Source of the DNA: Actinomycetota bacterium
GTDB lineage: Bacteria; Bacillota; Desulfotomaculia; Desulfotomaculales; Desulfocucumaceae
Reading direction: 5' to 3'
Length of the DNA stretch: 63,334 nucleotides
Assembly (NCBI GenBank): GCA_023475565.1
Contig: JAMCVT010000012.1
Location: forward strand, 1-63,334
Part shown: positions 20,203 through 22,693 of the stretch, piece after piece
Position numbering within the stretch: the first letter of the stretch is position 1
Layout of the letters: every line of letters begins with the position of its first letter
Program-made: the position numbers and the translations under genes
Notes under the pieces: generated by a model
The model's input: only the letters and a program-made list of their open reading frames with translations
Told to the model about the DNA's origin: nothing
Databases searched by the model: none

Positions 20203-20931
20203 ATGGCGGACTCTATTGAATACCTTACTCCTATTTTTGTGGATGCCCACAATTTGCCTGACGCCTGGTTTCAGCTGCAAAAAAAATTATGGGAAATAGA
20301 CGCATACGAGTACCCTGTCGAATGGGGAAGTTACCCGGGACAGCTTAGAAGAGAATTTGATTTTGCCTGCTGCCGGATAAAACACCCGGGCTTAAGGCCG
20401 CTGTGTGACGAGATACCTCCGGGTCTCAGCATATCCCCGCCCACTACCATTGACAGAATAGAGGAATATTTTCAGACATACATCCTTGGTCCCGGCAAAG
20501 AGGATAATCAGAAATACACATACGGGGAGCGCATCTGTATACAGGTGGAGCACCTGATCAACAGCTTTAAAAGTCAGGGCTTCGGCCATGTAAAGTCCTG
20601 TATTGAGATAGCGCGCCCGGAAGACCTGGTGGATGGAAAGTCACAGCCCTGCCTCAGGCTGATTGACTCCAAGATAAGGAAAGACCGTATAGCCAACGTA
20701 TACAGGCTGCACTTTATTGTTTACTTCAGGGTATGGGATCTGTGGGGAGGTTTTCCCGAAAATCTGGGCGGGCTGCAGCTTTTTAAGGAGTGGCTGGTGG
20801 AGCAGATTGGACCCAACCCTAAAGACGGGCTGCCCCTGGAAGACGGTGAAATGATTGTAATGTCAAAAAGCCTTAACGTCCGGGAGCACATGTTTGAGCT
20901 GTCCAAGGCCAGGGTTTACAGCAGTAAATAA
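20203..20931 (+). CDS. divergent thymidylate-synthase-like protein
   Basis: QPCLRLIDSKIRKDRIANVYRLHFIVYFRVWDLWGGFPENLGGLQLFKEWL aligns by eye with the TS PC...RSxDxxxGLPFN core. Confidence 0.5.
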   Translation: MADSIEYLTPIFVDAHNLPDAWFQLQKKLWEIDAYEYPVEWGSYPGQLRREFDFACCRIKHPGLRPLCDEIPPGLSISPPTTIDRIEEYFQTYILGPGKEDNQKYTYGERICIQVEHLINSFKSQGFGHVKSCIEIARPEDLVDGKSQPCLRLIDSKIRKDRIANVYRLHFIVYFRVWDLWGGFPENLGGLQLFKEWLVEQIGPNPKDGLPLEDGEMIVMSKSLNVREHMFELSKARVYSSK

Positions 20932-21017
20932 AGAGCGGCGAATCAATTGATTTACATAAAACCATTAAAGGTGCAGATCCTTTTCTAACAAGGTGCGGCA
21001 CCTTTTTTTATAAATAG

Positions 21018-21177
21018 CCGTCAGCCGTCAGTTATCAGTCAACCAGTAATACATGGGGCAAAAAACTTCAAAGCCGTAATTTCATTCTCCCTGGTAGCCG
21101 CATATTTGCGGCCGGGAGGTCTGATTACTGACTGCTGATAGCTGACGGCTAGCCGCCCGGAGGGCGGCTTTTTTTTA
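21018..21177. repeat. inverted repeat ending in a terminator
   Basis: TAGCCGTCAGCCGTCAGTTATCAGTCAACCAGTAAT...ATTACTGACTGCTGATAGCTGACGGCTA, then AGCCGCCCGGAGGGCGGCTTTTTTTT. Confidence 0.75.
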
Positions 21178-21278
21178 TTTATAAGCATTGTTAATCTGAT
21201 ACGGTTCATCTATAAATCTTTTTTATGTTTTTGATAAATTAATTATATAACTACCCGGGTTGGATGTATAATATTTTC

Positions 21279-21374
21279 GGGAAGAAAGGGGATGGTCCCC
21301 CCACAGGCTGCAAACCTGCTGGCCGGCCTGTGATCCAGGCCGGGGTCCGGTTCGATTCCGACTTCTTCCCTCCA
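21279..21374 (+). tRNA. SelC-like (long variable arm, 8-bp acceptor) tRNA with GCA anticodon and U73: tRNA-Cys variant
   Basis: GGGAAGAA/TTCTTCCC acceptor (8 bp), D-arm GGGGA-TGG-TCCCC, anticodon arm CAGG-CTGCAAA-CCTG, variable arm CCGGCCTG-TGATC-CAGGCCGG, T-loop TTCGATT, T73, CCA; TATAAT at 21267-21272. Confidence 0.8.
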
Positions 21375-21408: not shown

Positions 21409-22497
21409 ATGAAAAACAAAAAACTACTGGTGGTGGTTACAGGAGGGGTGTTGGGTTTGCTGTCCGTGCTGCTCGTCAGGTATGGCAACCCTGCCAACAT
21501 GGGTTACTGCATAGCCTGTTTTTTAAGGGATATCAGCGGGGGGCTGGGTTTCCACAGGGCAGAAACAGTCCAGTACATGAGGCCTGAGATATTCGGGCTG
21601 ATCGCCGGGGCCTTCATAGCTGCACTTTTAACAAAGGAATACAGGCCGGTGGGCGGCTCCAGCCCCTTGGCCAGGTTTACCCTGGCTTTTAGCGGAATGC
21701 TGGGAATGCTGGTGTTCCTGGGATGTCCGGTAAGGGCGGTACTGAGGCTGGCCGGAGGGGATCTGAACGCCGGGGTTGGCATACTGGGCCTTATTGCGGG
21801 AGTTTTTATCGGCATACAGTTTCTGAACAGGGGATTCAGCCTTGGCCGGGCAGGGGGGCTGGCCTCCGTTAACGGTTATATATTTCCGGTGACAGCAATT
21901 ATTATATTGATATTAGTGCTTTCCGGCGCTACATACTTTTTCGCCGGTAAAAGCGGCCCCGGCTCCATGCATGCCCCGGTGATTATTTCCGCGGCTGCAG
22001 GTTTGGCTGTGGGTGTTATGGCGCAGCGTTCCCGCTTTTGCATGATAGGCGGGATTAGGGACTTCATTCTCTTCAGGGATACCCACCTTCTTTTAGGATT
22101 CCTATCACTTCTGGTGTTCGCCTTCCTCGGGAATCTTTTCGCAGGAGCTTTTAATCCCGGGTTTGCCGGGCAGCCCATAGCTCATACCGACGGCCTGTGG
22201 AACTTCCTGGGAATGACCCTGGCCGGCGCCGCGGCCACCATGCTGGGAGGCTGCCCGCTGAGGCAGATAATCGCAGCCAGCGAGGGCAACACTGATTGTG
22301 CCGTAACCATTATAGGCTTTATAGCAGGGGCAGCCTTTGCCCATAATTTCGGACTGGCGGCAGGCCCCAAGGGGGTTCCCCTGGCTGGGCAGTATGCCAC
22401 CATAATAGGTCTTGCGGTAGTGTTGGCAATAGGCTTTTTAGGAACCTGCAGAACAAGTTCGGTAAGCGGGGGTGTTGGATATGGACAAAACGGTTGA
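21409..22497 (+). CDS. yedE: YedE-type selenium/sulfur-metabolism membrane protein
   Basis: NPANMGYCIACFLRDISGGLGFHRAETVQYMRPEIFGL...GCPVRAVLRLAGGDLNAGVG...MAQRSRFCMIGGIRD. Confidence 0.88.
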   Translation: MKNKKLLVVVTGGVLGLLSVLLVRYGNPANMGYCIACFLRDISGGLGFHRAETVQYMRPEIFGLIAGAFIAALLTKEYRPVGGSSPLARFTLAFSGMLGMLVFLGCPVRAVLRLAGGDLNAGVGILGLIAGVFIGIQFLNRGFSLGRAGGLASVNGYIFPVTAIIILILVLSGATYFFAGKSGPGSMHAPVIISAAAGLAVGVMAQRSRFCMIGGIRDFILFRDTHLLLGFLSLLVFAFLGNLFAGAFNPGFAGQPIAHTDGLWNFLGMTLAGAAATMLGGCPLRQIIAASEGNTDCAVTIIGFIAGAAFAHNFGLAAGPKGVPLAGQYATIIGLAVVLAIGFLGTCRTSSVSGGVGYGQNG

Positions 22498-22693
22498 TGC
22501 CCGGGGACTTTTGTGCCCGGAACCGGTTCTTCTGGTGAAGAGGGAAATAGATAAAATGACTGGGGGAACGGTAAGGGTATTGGTTGACAACAGCGCCGCC
22601 AGGGAGAATGTAACCAGGATGGCCGAAAATTCAGGGTGGACTGTCAGCGCAGCCGCTGATGGAATAGAATTGATTCTTACCCTTAGCAGATAG
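22484..22693 (+). CDS. TusA/SirA-like sulfur carrier (YedF N-terminal-domain-like)
   Basis: MDKTVDARGLLCPEPVLLVKREIDKMTGGTVRVLVDNSAARENVTRMAE; CPxP motif; overlaps yedE. Confidence 0.85.
   Translation, partial: DKTVDARGLLCPEPVLLVKREIDKMTGGTVRVLVDNSAARENVTRMAENSGWTVSAAADGIELILTLSR

Follow-up and report, generated by a model that had tools for sequence, protein, structure and literature searches.

A class of tRNAs with a tRNA-Sec-like body and cysteine identity was reportedly named tRNA-ReC in the 2018 work of Vargas-Rodriguez et al., in which charging by CysRS is said to have been shown. These selC*-type tRNAs are thought to let the cell finish selenoproteins with Cys. The class, selC* tRNA-Cys, is described in reviews (PMC7609411; PMC11415595), together with a tested member from Desulfotomaculum nigrificans that carries a GCA anticodon and is reported to be delivered by SelB rather than EF-Tu and to insert Cys at UGA (PMC11415595). 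By our placement, from the Peptococcaceae bacteria BICA1-7 and BRH_c4a and Desulfotomaculum-type genera, D. nigrificans lies in the same bacterial class as the genome studied here. The window analysed, a stretch of 63,334 nt, contains a single tRNA gene (ARAGORN), at 21279..21374 on the + strand, and this tRNA is a member of the selC* tRNA-Cys family already known.

Like the selC* tRNA-Cys or tRNA-ReC described previously (Mukai et al., 2017; Vargas-Rodriguez et al., 2018), the window tRNA combines a tRNA-Sec-like body with U73 and GCA, has a single-base bulge in its T-arm, and occurs in a Sec-using anaerobe alongside a true tRNA-Sec and a canonical tRNA-Cys. It differs from the tRNA-ReC of the review in that a C is bulged in place of A51a and the T-stem has five pairs rather than four, and in that neither selB* nor cysS* lies beside it, their place being taken by yedE and a tusA-like gene. 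The selC* tRNAs of Desulfobacterales (UCA, A1:U72, with SelB* and CysRS*) belong to the same class and have the same inferred job; the window tRNA, in contrast, carries G1:C72 together with GCA, and its genome yielded neither a second SelB nor a second CysRS. With the GCA-bearing tRNA-Sec of Aeromonas salmonicida it has in common the tRNA-Sec body and the Cys anticodon, but U73 gives the window tRNA a Cys identity, and its genome has a UCA tRNA-Sec in addition. The body is also related to that of tRNA-ReU of Pelotomaculum, although the window tRNA keeps U73 and GCA. The YedE/YedF/LysR selenium genes, as they appear in the passages searched of Lin et al. (2015), are neighbours of selC* here and in other phyla.

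A tRNA-Sec body with cysteine identity

The gene (96 nt, class II) is recovered by ARAGORN, Rfam RF01852, a covariance model and alignment. Its layout is GGGAAGAA A GGGGATGGTCCCC CC ACAGG CTGCAAA CCTGCTGG ... GTCCGG TTCGATT CCGAC TTCTTCCC T CCA, with an 8-bp acceptor stem, a compact D-arm with a G/C-rich stem, a 7-bp anticodon stem with one bulge, a long variable arm (7–8 bp), a 5-bp T-stem with one bulge, anticodon GCA, U73 and an encoded CCA. ARAGORN calls it tRNA-Cys(gca), and the Rfam tRNA-Sec model RF01852 matches positions 21279–21370 with 48.6 bits, its gathering score being 47. Both calls are right, the body being that of tRNA-Sec and the identity that of tRNA-Cys. The first-pass annotation had described just such a class II tRNA carrying GCA and U73, with an 8-bp acceptor stem, a G/C D-stem and a long variable arm, and each of these features is borne out by ARAGORN, the Rfam model and the class alignment.

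Three other types of tRNA do not match this combination. Canonical tRNA-Sec has G73 and, in nearly all species, UCA, versus U73 and GCA here; canonical tRNA-Cys has a 7-bp acceptor stem and a short variable loop, versus 8 bp and a variable arm of 7–8 bp; and allo-tRNAs (8/4 or 9/3, Ser-type) have a 12-bp acceptor domain and SerRS-type identity, versus 13 bp plus a bulge and U73. The 8-bp acceptor stem, long variable arm and long anticodon stem are those of the selC*/tRNA-ReC body, and U73 with GCA is one of the two identity combinations of that class, the other having UCA.

Two features had been judged structurally odd in the first-pass annotation. The bulged C in the T-stem is real, but it is not an oddity: a bulge is the rule in the class, where the usual T-arm pattern is GU[N] followed by 3 bp (5 bp in total). 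The class description gives a 4-bp T-stem with a bulged A51a, whereas the window has C and 5 bp; the bulged base varies within the class and is missing in some members, and A51a has been called dispensable (PMC7609411). The supposed outer A-C pair of the anticodon stem is instead a conserved family feature, a 7-bp stem with one bulged base at position 43a. In the class alignment the pairs outside this bulge covary (A-U, G-U, G-C; C-G, U-A), and thus there is no A-C mismatch. Molecules of tRNA-Sec whose AT-stem has 12 bp commonly carry a bulge at 43a as well (PMC5330540).

The base of the T-stem in the window tRNA (G49-C65, U50-A64) is the same as in tRNA-Sec. This is the region read by elongation factors. 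Its 3' side is AC in all 10 tRNA-Sec and in 71 of 76 tRNA-Cys(gca), nearly all of these being selC*, while the canonical tRNA-Cys, unlike selC*, has GG at the T-stem base.

The family across the class

In an alignment of 42 relatives from the same class, 23 of the 32 pairs show compensatory changes on both sides. Pairing cells amount to 96.7% as against 84.5% in shuffles, the covariation score is 0.414 as against 0.183, and sliding or shuffling destroys the signal. The window tRNA is a real tRNA, with structure far beyond chance. U73 and CCA are invariant (42/42), and GCA occurs in nearly all members found. Near-identical copies in related genomes led us to reject sequence error.

The Rfam tRNA-Sec score did not separate selC* from tRNA-Ser or tRNA-Sec, and a pattern, then a covariance model, was used. 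The 42 aligned sequences were picked by a pattern that demanded U33 and GCA and missed members with C33, A33 or ACA, which the covariance model later recovered. Sixty-one of the 113 class genomes carry selC*, 60 by the covariance model built from the 42 sequences and one (G044) by the pattern search. One further candidate (locus L204) was rejected as a chance match.

Cysteine and selenocysteine machinery of the genome

The genome contains one intact canonical tRNA-Cys, one full copy of CysRS, selA followed directly by selB (one full copy of SelB), and a true tRNA-Sec with UCA and G73, so that, as with tRNA-ReC, selC* is found together with a true tRNA-Sec and the machinery for Sec. A search of the genome for a second CysRS or SelB (cysS*, selB*) found neither. 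Because canonical tRNA-Cys, CysRS, selA–selB and the UCA tRNA-Sec are all present, the genome uses selenocysteine and does not need selC* for ordinary Cys codons. The first-pass annotation had proposed looking for a canonical tRNA-Cys and a true selC elsewhere, and both are there. It had also expected charging with Cys and pointed to a SelC-like tRNA-Cys (selC*) in the literature; the reviews cited above describe that class, and structure, U73, GCA, the separate UCA tRNA-Sec and the single CysRS support the expectation. At L232 (G000:C135:17600-18000), there is also a canonical tRNA-Cys 3' half lacking its 5' half, like the attachment-site remnant of an integrated element. Among the other carriers of selC*, pattern and DNA searches found no canonical tRNA-Cys in G034 or G040; selC* might be the sole tRNA-Cys there, or the result may reflect divergence or assembly gaps.

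An apparent operon with yedE

The tRNA apparently heads a unit in which yedE and a tusA-like gene follow. The CCA end is followed after 34 nt by yedE (21409..22497, +), which encodes a 362-aa YedE-family putative selenium transporter (TIGR04112, 477.9 bits, cut-off 200; Pfam Sulf_transp). The end of yedE is overlapped by 17 nt by a tusA/sirA-like gene (22481..22693, +; Pfam TusA, 63.3 bits, cut-off 28.6), whose 70-aa product has as its best NCBIfam match the N-terminal part of YedF, below that model's cut-off. A possible −10 box, TATAAT, read from the sequence at 21267..21272 (+), ends 6 nt before the tRNA, with no good −35 seen upstream of it; of 84 selC* genes, 33 have a −10-like hexamer no more than 22 nt upstream, as against 5% of random places. 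By a consensus scan only, an intrinsic-terminator-like hairpin with a T run (21151..21169, +) parts the unit from the upstream gene, a second terminator-like hairpin lies at 20990-21004, and no promoter-like site is reported between the tRNA and yedE. We infer from this arrangement that selC* is co-transcribed with yedE.

Upstream, a 242-aa protein (20203-20931) has a weak match to methanogen-type thymidylate synthase (47.6 bits, below the cut-off of 174.55). Just before the terminator is a 25-nt inverted repeat (GCCGTCAG-type; 21015-21039 and 21127-21151, 87 nt apart) that resembles a small mobile or repetitive element.

Linkage to selenium genes in the class and beyond

The arrangement in the window recurs. 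Of the 69 selC* genes in the class, 22, spread over six families, are followed directly by yedE in the same orientation, where far fewer than one would be expected by chance, and the spacing is short and conserved (about 20–60 nt). One genome (G088) has a selC* before each of its two yedE copies, and some genomes (G022, G057, G085, G088) carry a free copy besides the yedE-linked one. About two thirds of the class selC* genes do not adjoin yedE, and across the 113 class genomes the presence of selC* is not correlated with that of yedE (47/14/41/11; Fisher p = 1). The association in the class is positional only, and not one of presence and absence.

Beyond the class, a scan of named genomes found selC* in Carboxydothermus, a Desulfosporosinus MAG, Syntrophomonadaceae, Actinomycetota (Solincola, Geothermincola, Aquicultor) and Nitrospirae. 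The tRNA lies between yedE and tusA (L245), is flanked by divergent yedE and yedF in Actinomycetota (L192), stands between lysR and yedF in Nitrospirae (L203), follows selD (L184), follows lysR with selD nearby (L243), or precedes cysS by 21 nt (L178). The YedF, SelD, CysRS, double-cubane reductase and 'selenium metabolism-associated LysR' (NF040786) assignments are all above the cut-offs of their family models. In the phylum sample SelA is present in every one of the 24 genomes with selC*, compared with 256 of 398 in the sample as a whole, a difference (p = 1.7e-5) computed with shared ancestry ignored. At further loci (L165/L246 in Carboxydothermus, L163 and L164) selC* directly precedes a double-cubane-cluster reductase gene (NF040772) and its activase, a linkage that may be a clue to selenium metabolism.

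The selenium neighbourhood of Lin et al. (2015) comprises, in the passages searched, YedE, SirA-like/YedF, a LysR subfamily and 2-hydroxyglutaryl-CoA dehydratase-type genes; those passages mention no tRNA. Nor did we find a selC*–yedE operon link in the reviews and other papers searched. The linkage of selC* with selenium genes across phyla may be new.

Proposed function

Neither this genomic context nor a mechanism of SelB delivery and Cys insertion at UGA was part of the first-pass annotation. We propose, with good though not full confidence, that the window tRNA is a Cys-for-Sec back-up, charged by CysRS, carried by SelB and placing Cys at UGA, within a selenium-shortage unit that includes yedE. 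U73 and GCA, both identity elements for CysRS, would most likely lead to charging with Cys by the cell's only CysRS. By analogy with the D. nigrificans relative, for which SelB delivery and Cys at UGA come from the literature, the charged tRNA would then be carried by SelB rather than EF-Tu and would put Cys at SECIS-marked UGA codons, the mispair of GCA with UGA being tolerated as reported for that member. Under selenium shortage expression of the selC*–yedE–tusA-like unit would be raised, the transporter bringing selenium in while selC* lets selenoprotein mRNAs be finished with Cys. A role in shortage is suggested because yedE rises on starvation in Methanococcus maripaludis (its mRNA by 5.3 log2 on selenium starvation) and is linked to selC* in an operon here; in that archaeon a LysR regulator controls a switch between Sec and Cys isoforms. 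Against this, M. maripaludis showed no clear defect in transport when yedE was deleted, and YedE has also been considered an exporter, as passages of Lin et al. (2015) have it. That selC* is linked to a putative selenium transporter, to YedF and SelD and to the selenium-type LysR regulator offers a testable answer to when and why such tRNAs are used, namely in selenium shortage. If this is true, bacteria would have their own version of the selenium-dependent switch between Sec and Cys known in methanogens, at the level of the tRNA and not of the gene.

The simplest competing account, that selC* is an extra Cys isoacceptor reading UGC and UGU via EF-Tu, its tRNA-Sec shape and selenium neighbours being historical, would explain the full Cys identity conferred by GCA and U73 and the many selC* genes that have no selenium neighbour. 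We regard it as unlikely, given that a 13-bp acceptor domain makes a poor EF-Tu substrate according to the literature, that the tested relative is reported not to use EF-Tu (PMC11415595), that the T-stem base follows tRNA-Sec, that a few members lack U33 or carry ACA, and that every carrier in the phylum sample has SelA. If the tRNA were instead a sink, holding free selenocysteine loaded by CysRS on an EF-Tu-barred tRNA and so keeping it from the proteome in selenium excess, YedE would serve as an exporter. That role has been proposed for YedE (in passages of Lin et al., 2015), CysRS can load Sec on tRNA-Cys according to the literature, and the link of selC* to yedE would fit; yet yedE is induced by starvation rather than excess in the sole organism measured (M. 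maripaludis), and at UGA codons the tRNA would still be used by SelB, which leaves this reading improbable.

The remaining accounts have, in our view, only a very slight chance of being correct. Charging by SerRS and SelA, with Sec placed at chosen Cys codons as in A. salmonicida, would fit the tRNA-Sec-type body that RF01852 matches and the long variable arm, which is the main element read by bacterial SerRS; however, U73 replaces G73, and the genome has a separate UCA tRNA-Sec with G73. Equally implausible is a purely cis-acting role, in which the tRNA, folded within the 5' leader of yedE mRNA, governs yedE apart from any decoding. The short, conserved tRNA–yedE spacing speaks for it, but more than half of the copies are solitary, one is placed after yedE, others are transcribed divergently from that gene, and the tRNA retains its identity elements and CCA.

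A broader extension of the back-up reading, which we put forward tentatively and which has perhaps slightly less than an even chance, is that selC* is a built-in part of a bacterial selenium-homeostasis regulon in several phyla. It would be co-transcribed with YedE and its partners, often beside a selenium-type LysR, so that one selenium signal sets both uptake and Cys-for-Sec at UGA. A few members might then have drifted towards UGA reading (ACA, via inosine) or away from normal decoding (by loss of U33).

Variant members

Two yedE-linked copies have the anticodon ACA instead of GCA (L235:2172-2268 in G057 and L237:3044-3139 in G088); with A34 converted to inosine, these could read UGA. U33, a near-universal base of the anticodon loop, is lost in several class selC* tRNAs, being C33 in L240, L087, L238, L090 and L080 and A33 in L086, and its loss speaks against ordinary elongation as the sole job of these members, as judged from their anticodon loops. 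One selC*-like tRNA (L088:4046-4141, in G061) has the anticodon UCA together with A73, which fits the tRNA-ReU reported for Pelotomaculum.
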